A stretch of DNA of 64,000 nucleotides, taken from Flavobacterium tiangeerense (GTDB lineage: Bacteria > Bacteroidota > Bacteroidia > Flavobacteriales > Flavobacteriaceae). How positions within the stretch are numbered: the first letter of the stretch is position 1; each line of letters opens with the position of its first letter. Location of the stretch: positions 1 through 64,000 of the forward strand of contig NZ_VLKO01000012.1 in assembly GCF_007830355.1 (NCBI RefSeq), given 5' to 3'. Below are positions 315 to 63,999 of this stretch, one piece after another. The translations under genes were made by a program, and so were the position numbers. Below the pieces are notes generated by a model, which saw nothing but the letters and a program-made list of their open reading frames with translations, made no database searches and was not told the origin of the DNA.

Positions 315-503
315 AATGAACCTGAAAAATGAAATGTAAAGAGATTGAAAAATAACTCCTCCAGAAATAAAATCAAAATCAACCTCACAACACACTTTAC
401 AAACTTCACTTCTCTTCCAAACCACTATACAATCTATAAACAAACACCACTTATTTTAATATTAAATTTATGGAAAACACCGCCACATATTGAAACTTTT
501 CGC
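315..503. other. Gene-free AT-rich spacer
   Basis: Nothing convincing here. A 61-codon minus-strand open frame across 258-443 starts inside repeat copy 1, has no family resemblance and an odd Phe/Val/Cys-rich composition, so I do not call it a gene. Confidence 0.5.
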
Positions 504-511
504 TACATTTG
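504..511 (+). promoter_or_regulatory. Candidate -7 box TACATTTG
   Basis: A perfect match to the Bacteroidetes TAnnTTTG box with no gene downstream. Instead, two hairpins follow, the second with a T-run, within about 100 bases. I see no -33 TTTG at normal spacing, so the promoter call is tentative. A start near 517 would give a transcript of roughly 93 bases. Confidence 0.35.
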
Positions 512-516
512 AACTC

Positions 517-609
517 TGATTTAACGAATAACTGGAATTATTCGAGGTCTTAAATTCACTCCATTGCTCAAAAAAACAGGGTTCTAGTCCGTATTTTTGA
601 GCTTTTTTT
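517..609 (+). ncRNA. Candidate small RNA with intrinsic terminator
   Basis: Predicted from three elements in order: the TAnnTTTG box at 504-511, a perfect 7-bp hairpin (CGAATAA at 525-531 with TTATTCG at 538-544), and a terminator made of GCTCAAAAA (566-574) and TTTTTGAGC (594-602) followed by seven T. There is no ORF inside. Parts of it (TTCGAGGTCTTAAA and CAGGGTTCTAG) recur at 893-936 around the 3' end of the HU-like gene, so it may instead be the leftover tail of a lost paralogue. The architecture is seen; that it is transcribed is inference. Confidence 0.3.
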
Positions 610-782
610 ATGGCTAAAGACCATCCATTTGACCTTATTTAAATTAATAATCTCACATAAAATCTTCCTGTTTAACAAGATACAGCCGAAATACACACAC
701 TATTAAGCGTTTTTTTAATCCAAAAAGACCAAAAAAGGATTTCAAACACTTTTTAAAAAATCAACTTGACGGTATTTTTACA

Positions 783-825
783 TCGTCTTGATGAACTTTT
801 TACTTCATCAAGACGAATTTTTTTT
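783..825 (+). terminator. Strong intrinsic terminator-like hairpin
   Basis: Perfect 13-bp inverted repeat TCGTCTTGATGAA (783-795) and TTCATCAAGACGA (804-816) with an 8-base loop, followed by a run of T on the plus strand. No plus-strand gene precedes it. A third copy of the arm, GCATCAAGACGA, follows at about 826-837, so these could also be protein-binding sites. Confidence 0.5.
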
Positions 826-867
826 TGCATCAAGACGATTTGAACGCTATTTTGACATTATTGGGCA

Positions 868-899
868 TAAAAAAACCTCGAATACTGGAATATTCGAGG
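868..899 (-). terminator. Terminator of the HU-like gene
   Basis: Perfect 9-bp stem CCTCGAATA (876-884) and TATTCGAGG (891-899) with loop CTGGAA. The A-run at 868-875 reads as a T-run on the minus strand. It lies about 35 bases past the HU-like stop codon. Confidence 0.75.
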
Positions 900-933
900 T
901 CTTAAACTCAGTCTTTTACTACTGAACAGGGTT

Positions 934-1317
934 CTAGCCCACTTTTCTAAAAGATAAATCCTTTAGCATGCTGCGCATTTTCTTGCCTGGACGGAAGAGC
1001 ACACGCGTTTTTTTGATGGCTGCTGTTGATACCTCATCAGCAACATCCTTTCCTTCGGAGCTAATGCCCACTTGAAAATTGCCCAAACGGCCTAACTTCA
1101 CAATGCGACCTTGACCCAGTTCGCCAATGATGTTGTGTTCTAGAGAAGCGAGTACGGCGTAACAATCAGAAGCCGTCAAGGTACTCTGATACGAAATCAA
1201 CTCTGCTAGTCTTTCGAAATCAACATCGCCATCTGCAACTGCAGCGGCATAAAATTTTTCCGGAGCCACTAAGTCTCTCGGGTTCTTCCTTGGAAGAATT
1301 TTGTATTTAATAGCCAT
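934..1317 (-). CDS. HU-related DNA-binding protein (Bacteroidetes type)
   Basis: A 127-residue basic protein beginning MAIKYKILPRKNPRDL, which I recognise as the Bacteroidetes HU-related family: a short N-terminal extension, a helical dimerisation part (about residues 20-70, with the pattern FERLAELIS...LTASDCYAVL), then the beta-arm region (VKLGRLGNFQVGISSEG and KKTRVLFRPGKKMRSML). Such proteins bind and bend DNA; the target here is unknown. The open frame extends 25 codons further upstream, but that part overlaps the predicted promoter at 1386-1393, so I place the start at 1317. It stands alone among repeats, oriented like the upxY gene and the polysaccharide cluster. Confidence 0.85.
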   Translation of the reverse strand: MAIKYKILPRKNPRDLVAPEKFYAAAVADGDVDFERLAELISYQSTLTASDCYAVLASLEHNIIGELGQGRIVKLGRLGNFQVGISSEGKDVADEVSTAAIKKTRVLFRPGKKMRSMLKDLSFRKVG

Positions 1318-1385
1318 AATTTTTGGTATTAAATTAATAAATAAGTTTGTCTTAGTATACGTACTAAAGTATCTAACTGACTTTA

Positions 1386-1422
1386 CAAACATAATATACT
1401 TTTACTGTAAGTAAAAGCCAAA
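1386..1422 (-). promoter_or_regulatory. Promoter of the HU-like gene with an internal inverted repeat
   Basis: On the minus strand the -7 box reads TATGTTTG (1386-1393) and a TTTG lies at 1419-1422. The spacer is 25 bases, slightly longer than usual. Between the two boxes is a perfect 8-bp inverted repeat CTTTTACT-GTA-AGTAAAAG (1399-1417), well placed for an operator. A second small dyad, TTAGTA-TACG-TACTAA (1352-1367), lies in the leader. The boxes and dyads are seen; repressor binding is inference. Confidence 0.5.
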
Positions 1423-1847
1423 CTTATTCACAATTGAGGCTTGTTTTTAACAACAAAAAGAAAAGTGTAAATAAATACAAAACCCTCAACGACAGTATTT
1501 TAATTTTACAAAAAACTCGTTAAGCCCTATAAAACATAGGTTTTCCCGCAAAGACGATTAAGAAAAGTATTTGAGGCAGCTTAATAACATTAGCACTTGC
1601 AGCATAAAAAATCTAGAGCATTTTAAGTTACTTGCATCAAAAGTATTCAAATACACTGAAAACCTGCTACAGGAACTTTAGCGACCCCACCGGAACCACG
1701 TGATGATTCTTGTAAAATACTTGTACGTTTCAAATATTACATAAAAAAACAATAGCTTTTATACGTTTTTACACCACGATTTCTAAATGTCCCAAATGTC
1801 ATTTATCAATCACCATTTAGAGCGTGTTTACTAGATTAGTCCTAAGT
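1423..1847. other. Intergenic stretch without recognised gene
   Basis: No ORF of useful length and no clear hairpin-plus-T-run. A short patch at about 1681-1705 (CGACCCCACCGGAACCACGTG) is visibly richer in G+C than its surroundings, which hints at a decayed or inserted fragment. I cannot identify it. Confidence 0.4.
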
Positions 1848-1980
1848 GCAGCGTGTTCAGTTTCAAGTTTCAGTTCACAGTATACAGTTGACAGCTGACA
1901 GTTTGCAACTTACAGTTCACAATTTACAATTTACGAATAGAACTGCTACTTATACGAATAGAACTGCTACTTATACGAAT
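1848..1980. repeat. Degenerate CAGTTnACA tract and element leader
   Basis: Runs of imperfect units like CAGTTCACAGT, ACAGTTGACAG and ACAATTTAC form a low-complexity tract at about 1856-1936. It is followed by two tandem copies of GAACTGCTACTTATACGAAT, the leader that precedes most copies of the structured repeat. Similar tracts recur at about 2985-3050, 3310-3385, 3660-3728, 4667-4797 and 4880-4994. Confidence 0.7.
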
Positions 1981-2207
1981 TCGAAAAAACGCCCTTAAAT
2001 TAAAAACGTAAAAAAACAACGAAAAAATGCAGTGGCAGCAGTCCGCAAGTTGAGGCTGAAAGCCGAGCGGCTCGGGCTGCGGAGCGGAGTTTTAGAGGTA
2101 GTTTTTGAGCTTTTAATTTTCAGGCTTGATCTTTTGTTCATTTTGAAATGTCAATTCACGAACACCCATAAATTAATAACTCGTGAGTAATCAAGGTAAA
2201 AGAAAAG
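1981..2207. repeat. Structured intergenic repeat, copy 2
   Basis: Core with CAGTCCGCAAG, inner hairpin GGCT-GAA-AGCC and CTCGGGCTGCGG, then the AT-rich tail. The tail carries the roughly 45-bp loop insert (TTCACGAACACCC...ACTCGTGAGTAAT) also seen in copies 1 and 7. Confidence 0.85.
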
Positions 2208-2356
2208 ATTAGGCATAAAAAAAAGGCCGTCTGCTACAATGAAAGCGTGTTGGTGGGATTCTTCTTTCGTCAAAATGACAAAATTGGAGGTGAATCGTAA
2301 AGAATGAATAGCGCATTGCGTTTAGTAAAAATTAACCTCCTGTGATTAACAATACG

Positions 2357-2558
2357 TAAAACCGCCCTTAAATAAAAAGCATAAAAAACAACGAAAAAGC
2401 AAAGCGGCAGCAGTCCGCGAGTTGAGGCTGAAAGCCGAACGGCTCGGGCTGCGGAACGTAGTTTTAGCGGTAGTTTTTGCGCTTTTGATTTTCAGGCTTG
2501 ATCTTTTGTTCGTCAGATCCTGAGCGCAGTCGAAGGGGTGATCAAGGTAAAAGAAAAG
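2357..2558. repeat. Structured intergenic repeat, copy 3
   Basis: Same core (CAGTCCGCGAG, GGCT-GAA-AGCC, CTCGGGCTGCGG). The distal hairpin loop is replaced by a different segment containing TGAGCGCAGTCGAAGG (2521-2536). From memory, this word, read as CCTTCGACTGCGCTCA, is dispersed in many Bacteroidetes genomes; I could not check that. Confidence 0.85.
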
Positions 2559-2708
2559 AATAGGCATGAAAAAAAAGGCCGTCTGCTACAATGAAAGCGT
2601 GTTGATGGGATTCTTCCTTCGTCAGAATGACAAAATTGGGGGCGAATCGTAAAGAATGAATAGCGCATTGCGTTTAGTAAAAACTAACCTCCTGTGATTA
2701 ACAATACG

Positions 2709-2887
2709 TAAAACCTCCCTTAAATAAAAAGCATAAAAAACAACGAAAAAGCAAAGTGGCAGCAGTCCGCAAGTTGAGGACGTAGTCCGAACGGCTCGGG
2801 CTGTGGAGCGGCGCTTTGAGGTAGTTTTTGCGCTTTTGATTTTCAGGCTTGATCTTTTGTTTCTTTTGTATCAAGACAAAAGAAAAG
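2709..2887. repeat. Structured intergenic repeat, copy 4
   Basis: Compact form. The inner hairpin is GGAC-GTA-GTCC instead of GGCT-GAA-AGCC, so both middle pairs changed together. The outer arm is CTCGGGCTGTGG. The tail ends in the perfect 10-bp stem TTTCTTTTGT-ATCAAG-ACAAAAGAAA. Confidence 0.85.
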
Positions 2888-3047
2888 AGTAACCTAGAAA
2901 AACGAAATCGTCTGCTAAAATGAAAAATATGTGGAGATGCTTCGTACATCAGCATGACAGAATGGAGAGTTGATAGCCGAAAGTCATCAGTATTCAGTTT
3001 AGAGTTTACGTTCACAATTTATAAAAAGAACTACTACGTATACGAAT

Positions 3048-3230
3048 TCGGAAAAACCGCCCTTAAATTAAAAGCATAAAAAACAACGATAAAGCAAAGT
3101 GGCAGCAGTCCGCAAGTTGAGGACGCAGTCCGAGCGGCTCGGGCTGTGGAGCGGCGCTTTGAGGTAGTTTTTGCGCTTTTGATTTTCAGGCTTGATCTTT
3201 TGTTTCTTTTGCATCAAGGCAAAAGAAAAG
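3048..3230. repeat. Structured intergenic repeat, copy 5
   Basis: Compact form preceded by the leader CTACTACGTATACGAATTCG. Inner hairpin GGAC-GCA-GTCC; tail hairpin TTTCTTTTGCATCAAGGCAA followed by AAGAAAAG, with one arm base altered on each side so that pairing is kept (T to C-side change matched by A to G). Confidence 0.85.
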
Positions 3231-3382
3231 AGTAACTTAGAAAAACGAAATCGTCTGCTAAAATGAAGGACATGTGGAGATGCTTCGTACCTCAGCATGA
3301 CAGAATGGAGAGTTAATAGTCATCAGTATTCAGTTTAGAGTTTACGTTCACAATTTATAAATAGAACTGCTACGTATACGAA

Positions 3383-3566
3383 TTCGAAAAAACGCCCTTA
3401 AATTAAAAACGTAAAAAAACAACGAAAAAGCAAAGTGGCAGCAGTCCGCAAGTTGAGGACGTAGTCCGAACGGCTCGGGCTGTGGTGCGGCGCTTTGAGG
3501 TAGTTTTTGCGCTTTTGATTTTCAGGCTTGATCTTTTGTTTCTTTTGTATCAAGACAAAAGAAAAG
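3383..3566. repeat. Structured intergenic repeat, copy 6
   Basis: Compact form, nearly identical to copy 4 over its whole length (inner hairpin GGAC-GTA-GTCC, CTGTGG arm), preceded by the CTGCTACGTATACGAATTCG leader. Confidence 0.85.
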
Positions 3567-3725
3567 AGTAACCTAGAAAAACGAAATCGTCTGCTAAAAT
3601 GAAAAATATGTGGAGATGCTTCGTACATCAGCATGACAGAATGGAGAGTTGATAGCCGAAAGTCATCAGTATTCAGTTTAGAGTTTACGTTCACAATTTA
3701 TAAATAGAACTGCTACGTATACGAA

Positions 3726-3953
3726 TTCGAAAAAACGCCCATAAATTAAAAACGTAAAAAAACAACGAAAAAACGGAGTGGCAGCAGTCCGCGAGTTGAG
3801 GAGGAAGCACAAACGGCTCGGGCTGCGGAACGTAGTTTTGAGGTAGTTTTTAAGTTTTTAATTTTTAGGCTTGATCTTTTGTTTCTTTTGAAATGTCAAT
3901 TCACGAACACCAATAAATCAATAACTCGTGAGTAATCAAGACAAAAGAAAAGA
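3726..3953. repeat. Structured intergenic repeat, copy 7 (diverged)
   Basis: The inner hairpin has decayed (GGAG-GAA-GCAC no longer pairs fully). The tail carries the 45-bp loop insert (TTCACGAACACCA...ACTCGTGAGTAAT). It is the copy nearest the 3' end of upxY. Confidence 0.8.
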
Positions 3954-4058
3954 ACAAACATAAAGAGATACTTCGTCCCTCAGCACTACATAATAAAGAA
4001 TTGCATGTCAAATGCTACAAGTGATTAGTCTTATGTTGTTGTCATTTAATTAAGAAAG

Positions 4059-4541
4059 TTATTTCTTCTCTACTTTTAGCACACAACCCAAAGATTCCAA
4101 CACCAGCAAATAATGGTTTTGTTTGACTTCTTGAACAGTAGCCTCTTGATCTATAAATGGCCCAGATTCTAAAATAACTTTATCTCCTTTTCTCCACGTG
4201 TCAATAACAACATCAAATGTATCTGGGGCTGAAAGCCACTTCTGAATCGTTTCAATCTCTTTGTCTTTAACAATAGCAGGTTTCCCTAACCAGAACAAGT
4301 AGCGCACAACACCTGGAACATCAAAAACACTATTTCGCTCTTTTTCTGTAAGTCGAACAAAAATATAGGAATTGAACAAGGGTAGCTGTACCTTTTTTTT
4401 TCGATCAGACCATTGCGTAATTTTAGTAATTATTGGACAATAGGCATTAACTCCCATTTCCGTCAAACGTTCTGCTACTTTTTTTTCCGATTTTGGTTTG
4501 GTATACAGTACATACCAATTCATCATTACATCCATATCCAT
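4059..4541 (-). CDS. UpxY-family transcription antiterminator (NusG-like)
   Basis: A NusG paralogue of the UpxY/RfaH-like class. The N-terminal NGN domain begins MNWYVLYTKPKSEKKVAERL and continues through YIFVRLTEKERNSVFDVPGV (about residues 7-110 from the first start proposed here). A KOW-like C-terminal domain follows (WRKGDKVILESGPF). UpxY proteins in Bacteroides bind RNA polymerase at the start of capsule operons and prevent early termination. The open frame begins at 4577, but the -7 box TATATTTG lies at 4561-4568, so translation must start at 4541, 4535, 4526 or 4523. The last two give the usual NusG-like start, MMNWYVLY or MNWYVLY. It lies downstream of a terminated polysaccharide cluster and between repeat copies, so its target operon may be outside the window to the left. 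Confidence 0.88.
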   Translation of the reverse strand: MDMDVMMNWYVLYTKPKSEKKVAERLTEMGVNAYCPIITKITQWSDRKKKVQLPLFNSYIFVRLTEKERNSVFDVPGVVRYLFWLGKPAIVKDKEIETIQKWLSAPDTFDVVIDTWRKGDKVILESGPFIDQEATVQEVKQNHYLLVLESLGCVLKVEKK

Positions 4542-41750: not shown

Positions 41751-44700
41751 ATGAAACTAAAGTTTAATGGATTACTAGTACTCCTTGTAGTATTAGTGGC
41801 GCAAATTACATTTGCCCAAGAAAGATCTGTTTCGGGAACTGTTTCTGATAATGCAGGAATGCCTTTACCAGGTGTGAGTGTATTAGTGAAAGGAACTAAA
41901 ACTGGAACGCAAACTGATTATGATGGTAAGTATTCAATCAAGGCGACACCAAGCCAAATCTTGGTATTTAGCTACATTGGAATGAAAACTCAAGAATTAT
42001 CAGCAGGTTCAACAAGTTTAAATGTAAATCTTAAAGATGACTCAGTTGAACTAGAAGGAGTAGTAGTTACGGCTCTTGGTATTACAAGAAAAAAAGAATC
42101 TTTGAGTTATGCAACTCAAGAATTAAAAGGAGCTACAATTAATGAAGGTGGTTCAAATAATGCTGTATCTGCATTATCAGGTAACGTAGCTGGTCTACAA
42201 ATTACTGCACCTTCAACAATGGGTGGGTCAACAAGAATTGTTATGAGAGGTATTGGATCTGTAACAGGAGAAAATAAACCTTTAATTGTAATTGATGGAA
42301 TCCCTTTAGATAATGGAAACTACAATACAGCAAATACAGAAAGAGGAGCTGGAGGTAGAGATTACGGAGATGCATCAGCAGACATCAACCCTGATGATAT
42401 AGAGTCTGTTACTGTCTTAAAAGGTGGACCTGCAGCAGCGCTTTACGGGAATAGAGCTGGAAACGGTGCTATTTTATACACTACAAAATCTGGCAAAAAA
42501 GGTGGAAGAGCTGAAGTTTCTTTCAACTCTGGAATAACTTTTGAGGAAGCTTACATAAGCCCAAAATTACAGAAACAATATGGTGGTGGTAGTTCATCTA
42601 CATTTGTGAAGCAAGTAATAAACGGAAAAACTTACAATTTAGCAGATTATAAAACTGACGAAAGTTGGGGACCAAAATATGATGCCAATTTACTTCACTT
42701 GCCGTGGAATGCATTTGATCCAGAATTTGCTGAAGATTATTTAGTAGAAAAACCATGGCTTTCACCAAATAATGATGTAGATTCTTTCTTTAGAACAGGA
42801 ATAACAAGAAACAACGCTATATCGTTTACAAAATCAACACAAGATACTGGTGTTAGATTTTCTTACGCAAATCAAAAAACGGAAGGTATCGTTCCAAACT
42901 CTTCATTAACAAGAAATACTTTTTCTGTTAATGCAAATACTCAACTAAGTGATAAATTAAAAGTTGAAGGTATGATGACTTACGTACAAACTAGAGGTTT
43001 TAACAGACCAGAAGTTGGATACGGAGACAATGGTCTTGCTCAAAAATTCTACCAATGGTCACAAAGACAATTGGATTATAATGATTTGAAAGACTATAAA
43101 TTACCTAACGGCCAACAAAGATCTTGGAATAGAATTGCTTGGAATAATGCAACACCAAATTATTCAGACAATCCATACTGGATCATAAACGAAAATACTT
43201 CGGGAGATAAAAGAAATAGATTTTACGGGAACGGAAAAATAACTTACAACATCACTAAAGATTTATATGCAGTAGGTAACGTTTACGGAGATACTTACTC
43301 TTTAAATATCAACGAAAGAGTGGCTATTGGATCTCAAGCTACACCAAGCTACACTACATCTACTAGAACCCTTACTGATTTTAACTACGAAGGTCGTTTG
43401 CATTATGACAAAACTTTTGGTAAATTTAGCATCAACACATTTGCTGGAGCAAACAGAAGAAGTTATAATTTCTCTAGATTAACAGGTGCTACTGTAGGTG
43501 GACTATCATTACCAAATCAGTACAACTTATCAAATAGTAAAAGTCCTGCTTTAGCTACTAATTACGATGAAAAAACATTAACAAATAGTGCTTACGGATC
43601 TGTTGTGCTAGGATATAACAATATGTTATTTATTGAAGCTACAGACAGACAAGATTGGTTTAGTACTGTTTTCGAGCCAGTAAACTACGCTTCTGTTAAT
43701 GGAAGTTTTATCTTCTCTGAATTACTTACAGATTACAAGTGGTTAAACTACGGTAAAATTCGCGGTGGATGGGCACAAGCAGGAAATGCTACAACTCCAT
43801 ACAGACTAGACAATTATGCAGATGTTTTAACTCCATTCCAAGGACAGCCAAGATACAGTCAACCAGGAACAGCTAACAATCCACTTTTAGTACCTGAATT
43901 AAAAACTACAAAAGAAATTGGTCTTGAATTGAGTTTATTCGATAGAAGAGTTGGAATTGACTTAACCTATTATGATGTTGCTACAACTGATCTTATTACC
44001 CCAGTACAAATTGACCCATCAACTGGTTTCAACTTTAAGTTATTCAATGCTGGAAAATTACAAAACAAAGGTATTGAGGCAACTGTAAATTTAAATCCTA
44101 TAAGAACTACTGATTTCAAATGGGATATTACTTGGAATTTTGCAAAAAACAACAATAAATTAGTTGAATTATTACCTGGTGTAAATGAATTAATTATTGG
44201 AACTGCTCCATTTCAAGCTACTTTATTAGCGGTTACAGGACAACAATATGGTCAAATTTACGGAACAGACTTTACTTATGACGCTAATGGAAAAAAAGTT
44301 GTAGATGCTGATGGGTACTACATACCAACAGCAAGAAAATCATTAGGGGATATAACACCTGATTACAACATGGGTATTAGAAACTCTTTCAAATATAAAG
44401 ACATAAGTTTAGGTTTCTTAATTGATATACAAAAGGGAGGAAGCTATTTTTCTACAACACACATGTGGGGTACATATTCTGGAGTATTAGAAGCTACTGC
44501 AGCTAATGGAATAAGAGAAAATGGTATTGTTGTAGATGCTGTATACGAAGACGGTACACCTAATACATCTGTTTTACCTGGACAAGCTTGGGCACAACAA
44601 CATTATGGATTAGATGCATTGAACGTATTTGATGCTAGCTACGTTAAATTAAGAGAAGTGACTTTAGGTTATAGTCTTCCTAAAAAACACAGAGGAGTAT

Positions 44701-44873
44701 TCTCTGATATTAGACTATCTCTTTTTGCAAGAAACTTATTCACTTGGGGACTTGATTGGGATGGAATGGATCCTGAGATGGCATCATACGGTAGTGGAAA
44801 CACACAAGGTCTTGAAGGAGGTTCATTACCATCGACTAGAACATACGGTATGAACCTAGAATTTAAATTCTAA
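41751..44873 (+). CDS. SusC/RagA-family TonB-dependent outer-membrane receptor
   Basis: 1040 residues. Signal peptide 1-23 ending TFAQ. A carboxypeptidase-regulatory-like domain at about 25-105 (SGTVSDNAGMPLPGVSVLVK). Then the plug at about 112-245, with the SusC pattern GGSTRIVMRGIGSVTG, PLIVIDGIPLDN and VTVLKGGPAAALYGNRAGNG. The 22-strand barrel follows, ending in NLEFKF. It imports a substrate, commonly a glycan or peptide, with its SusD lid lipoprotein. No glycoside hydrolase, peptidase or regulator lies nearby, so the substrate cannot be inferred. Paired with susD 13 bases on. Confidence 0.95.
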   Translation: MKLKFNGLLVLLVVLVAQITFAQERSVSGTVSDNAGMPLPGVSVLVKGTKTGTQTDYDGKYSIKATPSQILVFSYIGMKTQELSAGSTSLNVNLKDDSVELEGVVVTALGITRKKESLSYATQELKGATINEGGSNNAVSALSGNVAGLQITAPSTMGGSTRIVMRGIGSVTGENKPLIVIDGIPLDNGNYNTANTERGAGGRDYGDASADINPDDIESVTVLKGGPAAALYGNRAGNGAILYTTKSGKKGGRAEVSFNSGITFEEAYISPKLQKQYGGGSSSTFVKQVINGKTYNLADYKTDESWGPKYDANLLHLPWNAFDPEFAEDYLVEKPWLSPNNDVDSFFRTGITRNNAISFTKSTQDTGVRFSYANQKTEGIVPNSSLTRNTFSVNANTQLSDKLKVEGMMTYVQTRGFNRPEVGYGDNGLAQKFYQWSQRQLDYNDLKDYKLPNGQQRSWNRIAWNNATPNYSDNPYWIINENTSGDKRNRFYGNGKITYNITKDLYAVGNVYGDTYSLNINERVAIGSQATPSYTTSTRTLTDFNYEGRLHYDKTFGKFSINTFAGANRRSYNFSRLTGATVGGLSLPNQYNLSNSKSPALATNYDEKTLTNSAYGSVVLGYNNMLFIEATDRQDWFSTVFEPVNYASVNGSFIFSELLTDYKWLNYGKIRGGWAQAGNATTPYRLDNYADVLTPFQGQPRYSQPGTANNPLLVPELKTTKEIGLELSLFDRRVGIDLTYYDVATTDLITPVQIDPSTGFNFKLFNAGKLQNKGIEATVNLNPIRTTDFKWDITWNFAKNNNKLVELLPGVNELIIGTAPFQATLLAVTGQQYGQIYGTDFTYDANGKKVVDADGYYIPTARKSLGDITPDYNMGIRNSFKYKDISLGFLIDIQKGGSYFSTTHMWGTYSGVLEATAANGIRENGIVVDAVYEDGTPNTSVLPGQAWAQQHYGLDALNVFDASYVKLREVTLGYSLPKKHRGVFSDIRLSLFARNLFTWGLDWDGMDPEMASYGSGNTQGLEGGSLPSTRTYGMNLEFKF

Positions 44874-56781: not shown

Positions 56782-59700
56782 ATGAAAAAATACATCTTAA
56801 TTTTATTTTTTATGACAGTAACCGCCTTCTCGCAGCAGTATGAAAAGAATTGGTCACAAATCCTAGTCCAAGAAAATAAAGGCAAAATAAAAACAGCAAG
56901 TAAACTTGTTGATGCGATTTACAAAAAAGCAAAAAAAGAGAATAATGAAGTTCAAATCATTAAATGTTTTTTTTACAAATCAAAATACCTGCAAGTTCTT
57001 GAAGAAGATGCACAAAGCCAAATCATTCGCAATCTTAAAGCCGAAATAAATACTGCAACTATACCTTCAAAAGCAATTTTGAACCTAGTGTATGCGAAGT
57101 GTTTAATAGCTTATAAAAATAAAAACTCCTATTTGATATACAATAGAACTAATACTACTAGTCTTGAGGATGATTTTCTGACTTGGACAGCTAAAGACTT
57201 CGAAAAAGAGATCTCTTCTTCGGTAACAAAAACACTAGCAGACGAAGCTGTTTTAAAAAAAATACCATTAACAAAATATGAAGCAGTATTTGATTTTTCA
57301 AAAAACCAAGACATAAATGAATCCTTATATGCTTATATATTGGGTGAAAACATAGACTATCTTAAAACAAATCTTAATTATTGGCAAAGCAGAAATAACA
57401 AACAACTGCAAGCCATGAAGGAGGAACTTTTTCAGGATTCAGAAAATTTCGTAAAATTAAAATTTGATTTTTTAGAAAATGACCTCATCAAACTTGTACT
57501 TCAGTTATACCAAGAACTGGAAAAAGAACACAGCACTAGTGAGAAGCAACTCACCCGCATGAAATTCATTCAGGCTTACGTAAATATTTCTCATGAATTA
57601 TATTTAAAATTCTTAAACCAAATTAAAACGAAACCCAGTGACACCATTAGCAAAGAAAAAATTCAAATAGAAAACGCAAGTATCCTTCTTGCAAATACTT
57701 CAAAAAAGAATTTCCCTGATTACAATAAAAATGCACTTGCATTACTGGATAGCATTATAAAAAACAACACACGAACAAATGCTTTTAAACAAGCTGTACA
57801 ACTGCGTCACACAACAACGTTAAAAACACTGACAGTTCAACTTCAAAAACAGTCTTATACAAATGAAAACACCAGAGCCTTTGTACAATACAAAAACATA
57901 AACAAACTCAAGGTTACATTTTATAAAATAGATCAAAAAACAAATCAAATTCTACAAAAAGCGACTTATAACAAAGACAGCTTAGTTCAAACCATTAGAG
58001 CTAAAAAAGAAATTGCAACTAGAGATTATGATTTAGAAAACAAAAAAGATTATTTTGAATACACCACAGAAATCCTCCTGCCACAACTAGAGACAGGAAC
58101 TTATTTAGTATATCTAGAAAGTGATTCCTTTAATGTAAATGAAAAAGCCTTTGCATTTAAAACTCTAACCGTTACTAATATTGCTGTATTGGCCACGCAT
58201 AAAAATAATATGCAGTGGTACCAAGTTTTAGACAGAAAGACAGGGAAACCTCTTGAAAATGTTTCTGTTAAATCACCGCGTCAAACACTAACCACTAACA
58301 AGAAGGGAATTGCTGTCGCACCAAAAGAAAACGACAATGACAATGATGAAATCTTAGAATTCTCCTTAAAGAATGACACATTAACATTAGAAAAACAATA
58401 TGTTTACAACACCTATGATTACGAAATTAAAGATGATGCACCAAAGGCAAAGGTAGAATTCTTTTTAGACCGAGCTATTTACAGACCAGGACAAACTGTT
58501 TACTACAAAGGGATTGCATTCCAAAAAAACAATAACACCTCTCAAGTTGTATCCAAAACTAGTTTTCATATTCGACTAAAAAATGCAAACTATGAAACTT
58601 TCAAAGAATTTGATGTCACTACAAATGAATTTGGTTCTTTTTCTGGAGAATTTAATATTCCAAAAACAGGTTTAACCGGTGAATTTAGAATAGAGGGTGA
58701 AGAACCAGCTGATTATGAAAAAGATGTAATTTATGACACCATAAAGGATGAACATCCATTTTGGGATGTTGTAGAATTCAACCATAGTATTGCTACATTT
58801 CAAGTTGAAGAATACAAACGTCCCAAATTTGAAGTGACTTTTGAACCGTTTACCAAAACGTATCAAGTCAATCAAAATATTTTAGCAACAGGTCAAGCCA
58901 AAGCTTTTTCAGGAAGTTCAATATCAGATGCTATCGTTAAATACGAAGTGAAATTAATTACTTTGTCTGCCAGAAATGGATACGATTTTAATTTTGACAA
59001 TGAAATAAAATCCATTTTAATTGGCGAAACTAAAACCGATGCTTCAGGCAAATTCGAAATCAATTTCATAGCCAATCCCTCAAACAACATAAGCAAAGAT
59101 AATCTTCCGCTTTTTAAATACCTCATCCATGCAACGGTTACTGACATTAATGGTGAAACACATATAACCCAAACCGAGGTGATTGTTGGATATCATACTT
59201 TAAAGTTAACGGCATCGGTACAGCCAAGTATAAAAACTAGTGATAAAAATCAAATCACATTAAACAGCACCAATCTCAACAACGCATTTATTCCCACGCA
59301 AGGAGAGATTAAACTGTATTATGTAAGTCCGTTTGCCACTAAATTTAAACCTAGGATTTTTAGTCAACCAGAAATTGTATCTATTCCTGATGAGGAATTT
59401 GAAAGACTTTTTCCTTATGAATTGAACGAAAAACAAAATGCAGTAAAGCCAACCGAAACATTAGTTTTTTCTAAAAAAGTGATTACTGAAAAGGATAAGG
59501 AATTACTTTTAGATTTTATTTCTGATTATAAATCTGGTAATTACAGAGTAGTATTTTCAGCTATGGACAACTTTAATAATCCAATAGAAACAAGTTCTAA
59601 TTTTCAAATCATTCAAAGTAAAGACAAATTTGATTCCAGCAAGTTATTTAAGGCAAAACAACTTAATGAAGATCCAAAAAAAGATGGATTTGTATTGGTA

Positions 59701-62700
59701 AAACTATCCTCTACTATACCTAATTTGTACATCAACACAACCGGAAACTACCATGGCTATATCTATTTTGAAGATGTGTTTCATTTAGAAAACAACGAAA
59801 CTATTATAAAAATTCCTCTAAAAAAGGAATTCGAAAATGAAATCTGTATTGGTTTTGAATCTGTATTTGAAAATAACACTTTCCAAGATCGTTTAGAGAT
59901 TTACTTAAAAAAGGTGGAACCTAGTTTAAATTTCTCCATAGAAAGTTTTAGAAATAAAATCCAGCCTGGAAGTAATGAAAATTGGTCTTTCCAATTAAAA
60001 TCATCAAATACCATTCAAGAAGCTGAAATTTTAGCCTCAATGTATGACAGCTCTCTTGACCAGTTTACAAAGAAAAAATGGAGTGACTTAAAAATAAATG
60101 ACTACTACTGGAATTCATTGCGCTTCAAAAATTGTTTGGGTTTTGATAAAGAATACATTACACTTTTAAATTTAAATCCCTTTTTAAATCCCATCACCTT
60201 TGATATTGAAAACACGAATTTAATGTGGTTTGGTTTTGACTTTAATGACTCCTTTACTTCAAAAAATATTGACGAATACCGCAAGCAAATCAACAATAAA
60301 AGTAAAAAACCACTGAATGCCAAAATGATTTCAGGTTATGTTTTTGATAAAAACGAACCTCTTCCTGGAGTTGTAATCCAAATTGACGGAACAAATCGAG
60401 GTACACAATCAGATTTTGATGGATATTACCAGATTGAAGCAGCACAAGGAGAAGAATTAACCTTCTCCTATATTGGTTTTGACGTAAAAAAAATTACCGT
60501 AACCACAAAGGTAATAGATGTACAGCTTGAAGAGTCAAGCTCTCGTTTAGAAGAAGTCGTCGTTAAGGGGTATGCCGGTCAAAAAAGTAAAGCGTCAACT
60601 AACGCAACAGCAGCAGTTGTTGAAGAAGCACCAGACAACGCCATTTACGCTACCCTAGGAATAGACAAACAGCTAGCCGAAACCGTAAAAGGTTTACAAG
60701 TATCAGGAGCAGCAAATAAAATAATTATTAGAGGTGCGAACAGTACATCTGCATCCATTGACGCACTTTGTATCGTTGACGGAGTACCCATGACCATGGA
60801 GCAAATAAAAGCAATTGCACCAAATGACATTATTGACATCGAAGTTTTAAAAGCCGACAAAGCCATCGCTTTATACGGAGAAAATGGCAAAAATGGTGTC
60901 ATAATCATCACCACAAAAAAAGCACTTGAAGCCTTAACACAAGTAAAAGCAAGAAAAAATCTTTCTGAAACTGCTTTCTTTTACCCAAATCTAAAAACCG
61001 ATAACAAAGGAAAACTGAGCTTCAGTTTTAGTGCACCAGAGGCTTTAACCAGTTGGAAACTCCGTTTGTTGGCTCATAACAAAGTCGCTGTTTCAGGGTA
61101 TTTAGAAAAAATGACCGTTACTCAAAAAGAACTGATGATTACTCCTAATTTTCCTCGTTTTTTTCGAGAAAGAGATTCAATCGTGATTACAGCCAAAATT
61201 GCAAACATCACCAATGGAACTAAAAAAGGAATGGCCGTTTTACAACTTTTTGATGCCACTACCATGCAAGCAGTTGATGTTAAAATGGCAAATAATAACA
61301 CCGTCAAAAACTTCACTATTGCAGCATTTGGAAACACATCTGTAAATTGGAAAATCTATATTCCTGAAGGCCTACAAGGAGTACAATATAAAATAGTAGC
61401 AAAAGCAGGAGACTTTTCAGATGGTGAAGAAAACATTGTACCAGTTTTAACGAATAGCATGCTTGTCACAGAGAGCACTCCAGTTTGGGTTAGAGACAAT
61501 TCTAAAAAAGAGTATTCACTTGAAAATTTAAAAAACAACACCTCTACTACTTTAAAAAACCATCAATTTACCTTTGAGTACACCTCAAATCCTACTTGGC
61601 TCGCCATTCAATCCTTGCCATACTTAATGGAATACGAACACGAATGTGCTGAACAAACATTTGCACGTTTCTATTCGAATGCGTTGGCGTCAGAAATCAT
61701 TTCAAGCAATCAAAAAATTGAAAATCTTTTTAAAACTTGGACAGCAAACAAAAAAATTGAGTCCAAACTGGAGGAGAACGAAGAATTGAAATCAATAATT
61801 CTAGCCGAAACACCATGGATCAATGATGTAAAAAGTGATGCCGAAAAAAAGAAAAACCTAGCTTTACTTTTTGATTTGGAGAAAATGAAAAGTTCGCAAG
61901 AAATTGCTTTTTCCAAATTAAAACAGAAACAAAAACCTTCTGGAGGCTTTGGCTGGTTTGACGGCGGAAATGAAAGCGAATATATTACAAGACATATCTT
62001 AGCAGGTCTAGGACATTTATCAAAATTAAGTACCACCACTAACAGTACTGAAAAAATAGCACAAATTGCTAAAACAGGTATTCCATTCTTAGACCAAAAG
62101 TTTTTAGAGCAACATAAGAATAGAATAACAGCAGCAACTCCATCACAAAAAATAATTTGGCACAATCCGTACTCTGAATTGCATTACCTCTATACGCGTA
62201 GTTTTTACGTAGAGCAGCAACCTCTTTCTGATACAATAAAGAAAGCCACAAAATGGTATATAGAAACTGCAAAAAAAGATTGGCTTTCCTATTCCTTGTA
62301 CGAAAAAGGTTTGGCAGCAATAACATTAAATCGATTTGGTGAAAAAGATACCGCCAAAAAAATAATCGAAAGCTTAAAAGAAACAGCCTCTAACAATGAA
62401 GATTGGGGCATGTACTGGATTGCTAACAAAGCAGGCTGGTATTGGCATCAAGCACCTATTGAAACACAAGCTTTGCTCATTGAGGCTTTCGCCGAAGTGA
62501 CAAACGACAAAAAAGCAGTAGACGAAATGAAAGTTTGGTTGCTAAAAAACAAACAAGTAAAGAATTGGCCTACCACAAAAGCAACTACCGAGGCTGTCTA
62601 CGCACTCCTAATGCAAGGAACTGATTGGTTGAGTGTAAAAGACAATACTGTGATCAAAATTGGCGACGAAAAAATACTTACCAAAAAACTCTCCGAAAAC

Positions 62701-63291
62701 GCAAAAGAGGCCGAAACTGGATATGTGAAACTCAACTGGAAATCTGATGAAATCAAAAAAGAAATGGGAACTATTAGCATTCAAAACAAATCAAATGTCC
62801 CTGGATTTGGCGGAATTTATTGGCAATATTTTGAAGAATTAGATCAAATAAAAAATCATTCTGGAGGTATTTTATCGGTTGCAAAAGAATTATTTATCAA
62901 AAAAAACACAGCTAATGGTGATGTATTACAAAAAATAAATGCAACACTTCCATTACAAATTGGTGATTTAGTTACCGTGAGGTTAATTATTACGGCGAAG
63001 GAAGACATGGAATTTGTTCATTTAAAAGACCTAAGAGCCTCTTGTTTTGAACCCGTAAATGTACTATCTGAATACCAATACAAAGGAGGATTAGGATTTT
63101 ACAACAGTACAAAAGATGCTGCTACTCATTTCTTTTTTGACTACATAAACAAAGGAACCTATGTATTAGAATATGACATTCGTGTCAATAATGCAGGATC
63201 ATTTTCAAATGGAATTACAACTATTCAAAGTATGTACGCCCCAGAATTCAGTAGTCATACCAAAGGGATTCGTATAAAAGTTAAAAAATAA
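56782..63291 (+). CDS. Alpha-2-macroglobulin-like protein with internal SusC-type N-terminal domains
   Basis: 2169 residues. Signal peptide ending AFSQ (no lipobox); a charged, probably helical N-terminal region to about 340; macroglobulin domains, with the MG2 hallmark DRAIYRPGQTVYYKGIAF (about 562-579) and the MG3 entry FQVEEYKRPKFEVTFEPF (about 673). At about 1184-1260 a carboxypeptidase-regulatory-like domain is embedded (SGYVFDKNEPLPGVVIQIDG), followed by a TonB-plug-like segment to about 1378 (NKIIIRGANSTSASIDALCI, IDIEVLKADKAIALYGENGK). The A2M domain follows (TDNKGKLSFSFSAPEALTSW, about 1399), then a thioester-type site C1622-A-E-Q1625 and a helical thioester domain. Bacterial A2Ms trap proteases in the envelope. 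The usual partner pbpC is not adjacent. Confidence 0.88.
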   Translation: MKKYILILFFMTVTAFSQQYEKNWSQILVQENKGKIKTASKLVDAIYKKAKKENNEVQIIKCFFYKSKYLQVLEEDAQSQIIRNLKAEINTATIPSKAILNLVYAKCLIAYKNKNSYLIYNRTNTTSLEDDFLTWTAKDFEKEISSSVTKTLADEAVLKKIPLTKYEAVFDFSKNQDINESLYAYILGENIDYLKTNLNYWQSRNNKQLQAMKEELFQDSENFVKLKFDFLENDLIKLVLQLYQELEKEHSTSEKQLTRMKFIQAYVNISHELYLKFLNQIKTKPSDTISKEKIQIENASILLANTSKKNFPDYNKNALALLDSIIKNNTRTNAFKQAVQLRHTTTLKTLTVQLQKQSYTNENTRAFVQYKNINKLKVTFYKIDQKTNQILQKATYNKDSLVQTIRAKKEIATRDYDLENKKDYFEYTTEILLPQLETGTYLVYLESDSFNVNEKAFAFKTLTVTNIAVLATHKNNMQWYQVLDRKTGKPLENVSVKSPRQTLTTNKKGIAVAPKENDNDNDEILEFSLKNDTLTLEKQYVYNTYDYEIKDDAPKAKVEFFLDRAIYRPGQTVYYKGIAFQKNNNTSQVVSKTSFHIRLKNANYETFKEFDVTTNEFGSFSGEFNIPKTGLTGEFRIEGEEPADYEKDVIYDTIKDEHPFWDVVEFNHSIATFQVEEYKRPKFEVTFEPFTKTYQVNQNILATGQAKAFSGSSISDAIVKYEVKLITLSARNGYDFNFDNEIKSILIGETKTDASGKFEINFIANPSNNISKDNLPLFKYLIHATVTDINGETHITQTEVIVGYHTLKLTASVQPSIKTSDKNQITLNSTNLNNAFIPTQGEIKLYYVSPFATKFKPRIFSQPEIVSIPDEEFERLFPYELNEKQNAVKPTETLVFSKKVITEKDKELLLDFISDYKSGNYRVVFSAMDNFNNPIETSSNFQIIQSKDKFDSSKLFKAKQLNEDPKKDGFVLVKLSSTIPNLYINTTGNYHGYIYFEDVFHLENNETIIKIPLKKEFENEICIGFESVFENNTFQDRLEIYLKKVEPSLNFSIESFRNKIQPGSNENWSFQLKSSNTIQEAEILASMYDSSLDQFTKKKWSDLKINDYYWNSLRFKNCLGFDKEYITLLNLNPFLNPITFDIENTNLMWFGFDFNDSFTSKNIDEYRKQINNKSKKPLNAKMISGYVFDKNEPLPGVVIQIDGTNRGTQSDFDGYYQIEAAQGEELTFSYIGFDVKKITVTTKVIDVQLEESSSRLEEVVVKGYAGQKSKASTNATAAVVEEAPDNAIYATLGIDKQLAETVKGLQVSGAANKIIIRGANSTSASIDALCIVDGVPMTMEQIKAIAPNDIIDIEVLKADKAIALYGENGKNGVIIITTKKALEALTQVKARKNLSETAFFYPNLKTDNKGKLSFSFSAPEALTSWKLRLLAHNKVAVSGYLEKMTVTQKELMITPNFPRFFRERDSIVITAKIANITNGTKKGMAVLQLFDATTMQAVDVKMANNNTVKNFTIAAFGNTSVNWKIYIPEGLQGVQYKIVAKAGDFSDGEENIVPVLTNSMLVTESTPVWVRDNSKKEYSLENLKNNTSTTLKNHQFTFEYTSNPTWLAIQSLPYLMEYEHECAEQTFARFYSNALASEIISSNQKIENLFKTWTANKKIESKLEENEELKSIILAETPWINDVKSDAEKKKNLALLFDLEKMKSSQEIAFSKLKQKQKPSGGFGWFDGGNESEYITRHILAGLGHLSKLSTTTNSTEKIAQIAKTGIPFLDQKFLEQHKNRITAATPSQKIIWHNPYSELHYLYTRSFYVEQQPLSDTIKKATKWYIETAKKDWLSYSLYEKGLAAITLNRFGEKDTAKKIIESLKETASNNEDWGMYWIANKAGWYWHQAPIETQALLIEAFAEVTNDKKAVDEMKVWLLKNKQVKNWPTTKATTEAVYALLMQGTDWLSVKDNTVIKIGDEKILTKKLSENAKEAETGYVKLNWKSDEIKKEMGTISIQNKSNVPGFGGIYWQYFEELDQIKNHSGGILSVAKELFIKKNTANGDVLQKINATLPLQIGDLVTVRLIITAKEDMEFVHLKDLRASCFEPVNVLSEYQYKGGLGFYNSTKDAATHFFFDYINKGTYVLEYDIRVNNAGSFSNGITTIQSMYAPEFSSHTKGIRIKVKK

Positions 63292-63360: not shown

Positions 63361-63999
63361 TTAGTCGTTCAACATTTTCCACAATTTGTCTTTTAATTCT
63401 GTAAGTCCCTGTTGCGCCACAGAAGATATAAACATGTATGGAATATCTTGAAAAGATGCATCCAGTTCTGTTTTCAATTCAGCCTTTAATTCATCATCAA
63501 GCATGTCGCATTTAGAAATCACTAATAAACGCTCTTTATCTAGCATTTCTGGGTTGTACTTGGTCAACTCATTCACAAGAATATCATATTCCCCTTTGAT
63601 ATCTGGTGTATCAACGGGAACTAAAAATAACAATGTCGAGTTACGCTCAATGTGTCTTAAAAAATAATGCCCTAAACCTTTTCCTTCAGCAGCTCCTTCA
63701 ATAATTCCCGGAATATCAGCAATCACAAAAGATTGAAAATCTCTGTAAGCCACAATTCCTAAATTAGGTTTTAAAGTTGTAAAAGGATAATCCGCAATTT
63801 TTGGCTTAGCCGAAGTCAAAACAGATAATAAAGTGGACTTACCAGCATTAGGAAAACCAACTAAACCTACATCAGCAAGTACCTTCAATTCCAAAATAAC
63901 ATCCATTTCTACGCCTGGTAAACCTGGTTGAGAGTATCGTGGTGTTTGATTGGTTGAGCTTCTAAAGTGCCAGTTTCCTAAACCACCTTTTCCGCCGCG
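63361..63999 (-). CDS. obg: GTPase Obg/CgtA, 3' part only
   Basis: The gene runs off the right edge; 212 codons are visible. Before the internal Met at 63906 the frame stays open and reads [20 protein letters not shown], the end of the glycine-rich Obg domain. The G domain follows: G1 [15 protein letters not shown], the switch [10 protein letters not shown]3 [21 protein letters not shown]4 ISKCDM (Ser-Lys-Cys-Asp in place of NKxD) and G5 ISSVAQQGL. Ribosome-associated GTPase of 50S assembly and stress. It ends after the G domain, without a long C-terminal extension. Confidence 0.96.

Follow-up and report, generated by a model that had tools for sequence, protein, structure and literature searches.

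The window analyzed here is a 64,000-nucleotide stretch of the Flavobacterium tiangeerense genome, and its forward strand contains a gene for an alpha-2-macroglobulin (A2M), whose features are collected in Table 1. The Pfam models MG2, CarbopepD_reg_2, A2M, and bMG10 all score above their curated cut-offs, and the CAEQ thioester motif reported in a first-pass annotation of this DNA is indeed present. By its domain content, the protein is a true bacterial A2M, and its N terminus is signal peptide-like, without a lipobox. The Pfam bait region model A2M_BRD was not listed for the window protein. An obgE-like ORF (63361-63906) comes next after the A2M gene.

Table 1. Features of the A2M gene, with residue numbers of its product and the basis of each assignment
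Feature	Position	Strand	Residues	Basis or remark
Alpha-2-macroglobulin (A2M) gene	56782..63291	+	2169 residues	
Exchanged variable part	57022..60921	+	~81-1380	Inferred from relatives; left edge approximate (81-120)
MG2 domain	58459..58704	+	560-641	Pfam
CarboxypepD-reg domain (CarbD; SusC NTE-type)	60328..60564	+	1183-1261	NCBIfam, Pfam, AlphaFold, structure alignment
Disordered stretch, proposed cleavable bait	60541..60759	+	1254-1326	pLDDT <50, fastest evolving, most gaps
TonB box LEEVVV	60547..60564	+	1256-1261	By analogy with VDEVVV of Bt1763
Half-plug (beta-alpha-beta)	60766..60915	+	1329-1378	pLDDT 63-76
Second short low-confidence stretch, proposed alternative cut site	60931..60960	+	1384-1393	AlphaFold
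A2M domain (PF00207)	60970..61227	+	1397-1482	Pfam
Thioester motif CAEQ	61645..61656	+	1622-1625	Motif search
bMG10 domain	62872..63246	+	2031-2155	Pfam

Ahead of the A2M domain lies a block that the first-pass annotation had likened to the N terminus of SusC receptors, placing residue 1182 correctly at 60325. The resemblance is genuine, because NCBIfam TIGR04056 (SusC/RagA) matches residues 1182-1395 (E = 2e-50, profile positions 2-220 of 981) and the solved structures matched by the block are SusC homologues (5t3r, E = 9.2e-19); Pfam CarbopepD_reg_2 matches at residues 1183-1261 (E = 2.2e-18). The TIGR04056 match stops at profile position 220, in agreement with the earlier statement that there is no barrel, and its 172 bits fall short of the family cut-off (368), as a block without one should. 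A SusC/RagA receptor would have a barrel and a full-length TIGR04056 match above the cut-off; the window A2M has neither and is, on these profiles, not a SusC receptor. The window's own SusC (41751-44873), rightly identified at first pass as the real one, matches the entire TIGR04056 profile and the full length of the Plug model, and also has CarbD. In the A2M, the excised block matches profile positions 29-107 of the 107 in the Plug model (E = 1.6e-8), from which it appears that the first quarter of the plug was lost or has diverged. The Plug model was not listed for the whole A2M protein (E up to 1) and was absent from the genome profile search at E = 0.001. The block thus resembles SusC/RagA receptors (Bt1763 and the window SusC) in having CarbD (the NTE domain), a TonB box, and the second part of the plug in identical order, and differs from them in lacking the barrel, in the N-terminal shortening of its plug, and in being set midway in another protein.

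We calculated two AlphaFold2 models, one of residues 1060-1500 (56 aligned sequences; mean pLDDT 65, pTM 0.33, a low overall confidence) and one of residues 455-1500 (58 sequences; mean pLDDT 79, pTM 0.60), which excludes the thioester domain. The MG domains are well predicted. CarbD is predicted confidently (pLDDT 83-90 in the 1060-1500 model) and superimposes on the NTE domain of the SusC BT3090 (9hfj; Z is 15.0 and r.m.s.d. is 1.2 comparing 78 residues). At residues 1254-1326 (1257-1325 in the 1060-1500 model) pLDDT drops below 50, with the TonB box at the start of this stretch, and the half-plug that follows is predicted with low-to-moderate confidence. With a limit of E = 0.001, Foldseek retrieved nothing that matches the half-plug; the best SusC chain was 8a9y (E = 0.067). 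The structure prediction called for at first pass therefore bears out the CarboxypepD-reg fold; in place of the proposed plug it gives this half-plug. A short low-confidence stretch after the half-plug spans residues 1384-1393 in the 455-1500 model and 1388-1394 in the smaller one, and another is found upstream of CarbD in both (residues ∼1100-1154), so that the cut site of the protein may be elsewhere.

On either side of the block, the model aligns with residues 869-1062 of the Escherichia coli A2M (4rtd; Z is 11.1, r.m.s.d. is 6.7 comparing 141 residues), a segment that includes bait residues 923-942, which lack density in the cleaved form (PMC4498604). The 455-1500 model aligns with the same structure (Z is 22.8, r.m.s.d. 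is 4.0 comparing 380 residues), in keeping with a macroglobulin ring fold, and with the Salmonella A2M (4u48; Z is 21.9, r.m.s.d. is 8.5 comparing 410 residues). Because both the flanks and the larger model align with these A2Ms, we place the block at the bait position ahead of the A2M domain, where the first-pass annotation had expected it. The position of the block, its predicted disorder, and its variability would fit a cleavable bait region. The E. coli YfhM/ECAM and the Salmonella SaA2M share with the window A2M the MG, A2M, and bMG10 domains, the CxEQ motif, and a bait ahead of the A2M domain. In contrast to theirs, the bait of the window A2M is a composite of CarbD, TonB box, and half-plug, and in window-type A2Ms the N-terminal half appears to be exchanged together with the bait as a cassette. 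A lipobox is present in 1 of 85 N termini of window-type A2Ms; ECAM, by contrast, has an inner membrane anchor (PMC4498604).

A scan of the genome contigs (genome_contigs) provided relatives, of which we kept the best 80 of 144; the titles of these 80 name Flavobacterium in 75 cases and Aequorivita in one. Three loci without an ORF of 1500 codons (L077, L079, L116) were dropped and four (L073, L084, L123, L132) left out as duplicates of other rows. Among the 73 named A2Ms compared without duplicates, 60 have CarbD and all 73 a plug match. The block as an assembly error, or as a recent accidental fusion in a single genome, is recommended by the oddity of the architecture only and has a negligible chance of being right, as this architecture recurs across many independent genomes, which rules it out. 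For comparison we used 84 A2Ms, comprising scan loci and further relatives from other searches: 65 contain CarbD and a plug match, 17 a plug match only, and two neither. The thioester motif CxEQ is found in 78 of the 84; its cysteine or the entire motif is lost in the other six (L032, L068, L112, L064, L065, L066), with more than one loss within Flavobacterium. Flavobacterium johnsoniae CI04 has the gene (L070). Many of the A2Ms without CarbD (L131, L133, L138, L141, and others) have a segment like KDKKVGSETIKGDPDAVLTVDE in its place. At 61 of at most 80 loci, a convergent gene of one protein cluster is located no more than three ORFs downstream of the A2M (e.g. L070:14565-16706), and the tested member of this cluster is a Peptidase_S46; the window has the obgE-like ORF there instead. 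None of the conserved neighbors of the A2M locus that we examined explains the insert.

In receptors, the TonB box is what TonB holds on to, and is no docking site for another receptor. The window A2M has LEEVVV after CarbD, in the same place as VDEVVV (residues 81-86) in Bt1763, where deletion of the box or its replacement by alanines causes growth defects like those of a SusD deletion (PMC7782687). Among 64 CarbD-bearing A2Ms, the box columns hold L in 54, E in 55, and V in 60, 53, and 56 proteins, respectively, followed by G or A in 60, Y in 49, and G in 56. The box is the best conserved receptor feature of the disordered part. The strict box pattern is found in 49 of the 64 proteins, in two of them at another hydrophobic stretch, and is missing from 15, and docking on TonB thus cannot be general. 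The gene of a 388-residue CarbD-containing protein adjoins the A2M at five loci (L113:14511-15674, 6 bases downstream) and encodes LNEVVFI after CarbD, so that proteins other than TonB-dependent receptors can have a box-like motif as well. Of the interpretation offered at first pass, the bait position, the thioester motif, and the likeness to SusC hold. Docking on TonB-dependent receptors, sensing of proteases that attack these receptors, and capture through the thioester, also proposed there, are hypothetical, and the box would suggest TonB as the partner.

In the class Bacteroidia, this A2M type is present in 180 of 396 genomes, and the other Bacteroidia A2Ms share the profile of the C-terminal half with the window A2M. 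We surveyed 79 bait regions, which were picked for family spread so that fractions are not prevalences, and could parse 77. Eight of the 77 contain CarbD, three have a plug match, and 68 have neither; of the two unparsed ones (L187, L190), L190 shows a CarbD-like sequence and a box by eye. In 68 of the 77, the block between MYDxSLD and the ETAFF motif measures 114-172 residues, compared with 288 in L148, a relative of the window A2M. As most of the surveyed baits lack both domains, such an A2M can do without SusC parts. Six of the 68 domain-less baits contain the box pattern (two of them, L161 and L166, loose; shuffle mean 0.24, and never more than 3 over 500 shuffles), against two of the 68 in upstream sequence of the same proteins, which is 2.5 times as much. 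The plug piece GRVAG is found in four of the 68 baits (shuffle mean 0.02) and not at all upstream. Neither the IRG piece (five of 68, shuffle mean 0.56, four upstream) nor the box pattern with a small residue required next (one of 68, shuffle mean 0.10) is telling. Short SusC-like pieces, as judged from these pattern counts, recur in a minority of domain-less baits from other Bacteroidia families. In a tree of the CarbD piece, 24 inserts from Flavobacterium and relatives are intermixed with seven other survey inserts and 42 receptors, requiring eight changes for the first group; an AU test does not reject a single clade (p = 0.457), so that the piece may have been captured once or several times.

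The SusC parts could have no role of their own: SusC N termini, being abundant repeats in these genomes, would land by recombination in a bait that tolerates nearly any sequence and then decay, leaving a working trap. Such a neutral sink would be in line with the 68 of 77 surveyed baits that lack the domains, with the many intermediate states among baits, with the many TonB-dependent receptors that a genome encodes (G000 has 34 Plug matches), and with a piece order that varies by lineage, the plug piece preceding the box in L155 and L065, and IRG preceding LQGRVAG in L191 and L189. We nevertheless regard it as rather unlikely. When pooled over 11 pairs picked by closeness, dN/dS peaks in the linker (0.44) and is lower in the half-plug (0.21), CarbD (0.20), the box (0.20, a rough value from 110 codons in total), the N-terminal half (0.18), and the C-terminal half (0.09). 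The linker also has 5.2 gap columns per 100 codons, against 0.3 or fewer in the other parts. The linker thus ranks as the fastest-evolving part, and CarbD, the box, and the half-plug appear constrained; dN/dS shows no positive selection in these 11 pairs. Such a profile, a variable stretch flanked by constrained ones, is what a bait should show and argues against a relic that is purely neutral, with purifying selection on CarbD, box, and half-plug like that on the N-terminal half and a design that is kept across the sampled Flavobacterium.

An EEDNxVYNTAG-like motif is located within the variable linker of 38 of the 84 A2Ms, with or without CarbD (two loose; e.g. L072, L091, L133; shuffle mean 0.39), and in none of 49 receptor ORFs. 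Its variant in the window is VVEEAPDNAIY (∼60617-60651), and the motif could mark a cut site or serve as an anchor.

A different role for the block, as a localization or regulatory module that ties the A2M to TonB or to outer membrane assembly, with proteases cutting elsewhere, would agree with the conservation of the box, with the further low-confidence stretch ahead of CarbD, and with the CarbD-type domain in the BAM structure of F. johnsoniae (9n2d chain E, Z is 10.4). We consider this improbable: the fastest-evolving linker lies inside the block, the low-complexity bait of ordinary relatives occupies the same place, and the sequence aligned with the E. coli bait region is split by the block.

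Between some related loci, identity changes abruptly along the gene. For Flavobacterium sp. KMS (L084) and F. hydatis (L128), base identity is 92-97% ahead of the gene and over its first 250 bases, falls to 56-85% for bases 500-4000, and recovers to 90-99% from about base 4250 past the gene end. Identity drops in the same way in L075/L082 and L103/L146 and more mildly in L131/L133 and L096/L128, compared with 83-97% along the gene and no drop in the control pair L072/L111. Across 131 pairs with C-terminal halves at least 88% identical (L066, L067, and L092 left out), median identity is 72-80% for residues 1-80, 67% for 81-120, and 41-70% by segment for 121-1380, followed by 87% for 1381-1395 and 85-92% thereafter, a sharp break in these alignments where the bait ends. 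We also compared trees of the N- and C-terminal halves of 80 proteins (without L066, L067, L092, and L140_1). CarbD presence requires 12 changes on the C-half tree, five of them forced by supported branches, versus three on the N-half tree. Thirteen CarbD-less proteins, a group named after the N-half tree was seen, form one supported clade by the N-terminal half, and this clade is rejected by the C-terminal half (p = 1.5e-48). The conflict between the trees, together with the identity drops, implies that the N-terminal half and the bait move as a block. At the sequence level, the part of the gene for residues ∼100-1380 behaves like a cassette that passes from species to species, next to a constant thioester half.

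The nearest relative of the window A2M, L067, carries the same cassette. In 30-base steps around the bait the two are 87-100% identical, except for 67% at 60541-60570 and 70% at 60601-60630, and the DNA of the box differs with the protein motif kept. The divergent tract 60541-60630 looks as if it arose by small-scale gene conversion, and no donor of it was found among the fetched loci.

We think that the protein is probably a periplasmic A2M protease trap, whose bait is built from a SusC N terminus (NTE domain, TonB box, linker, and half-plug), with the box as a key piece, and is diversified by recombination. From known A2M biology, a protease reaching the periplasm would cut the disordered stretch at residues ∼1254-1326, or the one at 1384-1393; the cut bait would be released, the molecule would close, and the CAEQ thioester would bind the protease. 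With less confidence, we infer that the SusC pieces would give the bait the look or the location of a receptor N terminus, that the box would let the trap grip TonB and so be stationed at the receptors' place of work, and that cassette exchange would diversify the trap against changing proteases. A cut within 1254-1326 would leave the half-plug on the retracting end, which would imply either that the half-plug is unfolded or degraded or that the productive cut falls at 1384-1393. A long composite bait is puzzling because human A2M with a lengthened bait had a lower native fraction (PMC9352918); folded pieces may shorten the composite bait in effect. Among possible reasons for the SusC parts, decoy action would account for the mixture of pieces, TonB docking would best explain the box, and a neutral sink would explain the shuffled orders. 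More speculatively, and in our view doubtfully, the protein could be a hypervariable, immunity-like trap stationed at TonB, offering a receptor N terminus as bait, with TonB binding its box as in a receptor, on the SusC entry route of incoming proteins. If it stayed folded, the half-plug might block retraction of the cut bait; pulling by TonB could unfold it and thus gate the trap by force, with exchange keeping the bait ahead of its targets.

Sequence databases already annotate such domain combinations. Our literature search returned no paper combining alpha-2-macroglobulin, Bacteroidetes, and plug domain, and no such architecture among the matches listed, which is weak evidence; a term search for “macroglobulin” in PMC12611786, on the F. 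johnsoniae BAM, gave no hit. New here are the linker as the fastest-evolving part, the exchanged cassette, and the SusC-like pieces in other Bacteroidia baits. Together they suggest an evolving defense against proteases. To our knowledge, the targets of bacterial macroglobulin defense are largely open. A bait with recognizable parts within an exchanged, variable cassette would point to an adversary that changes and to TonB and its receptors as the site, and both could be tested in Flavobacterium johnsoniae. If this reading is true, SusC N-terminal modules would be at work outside receptors.
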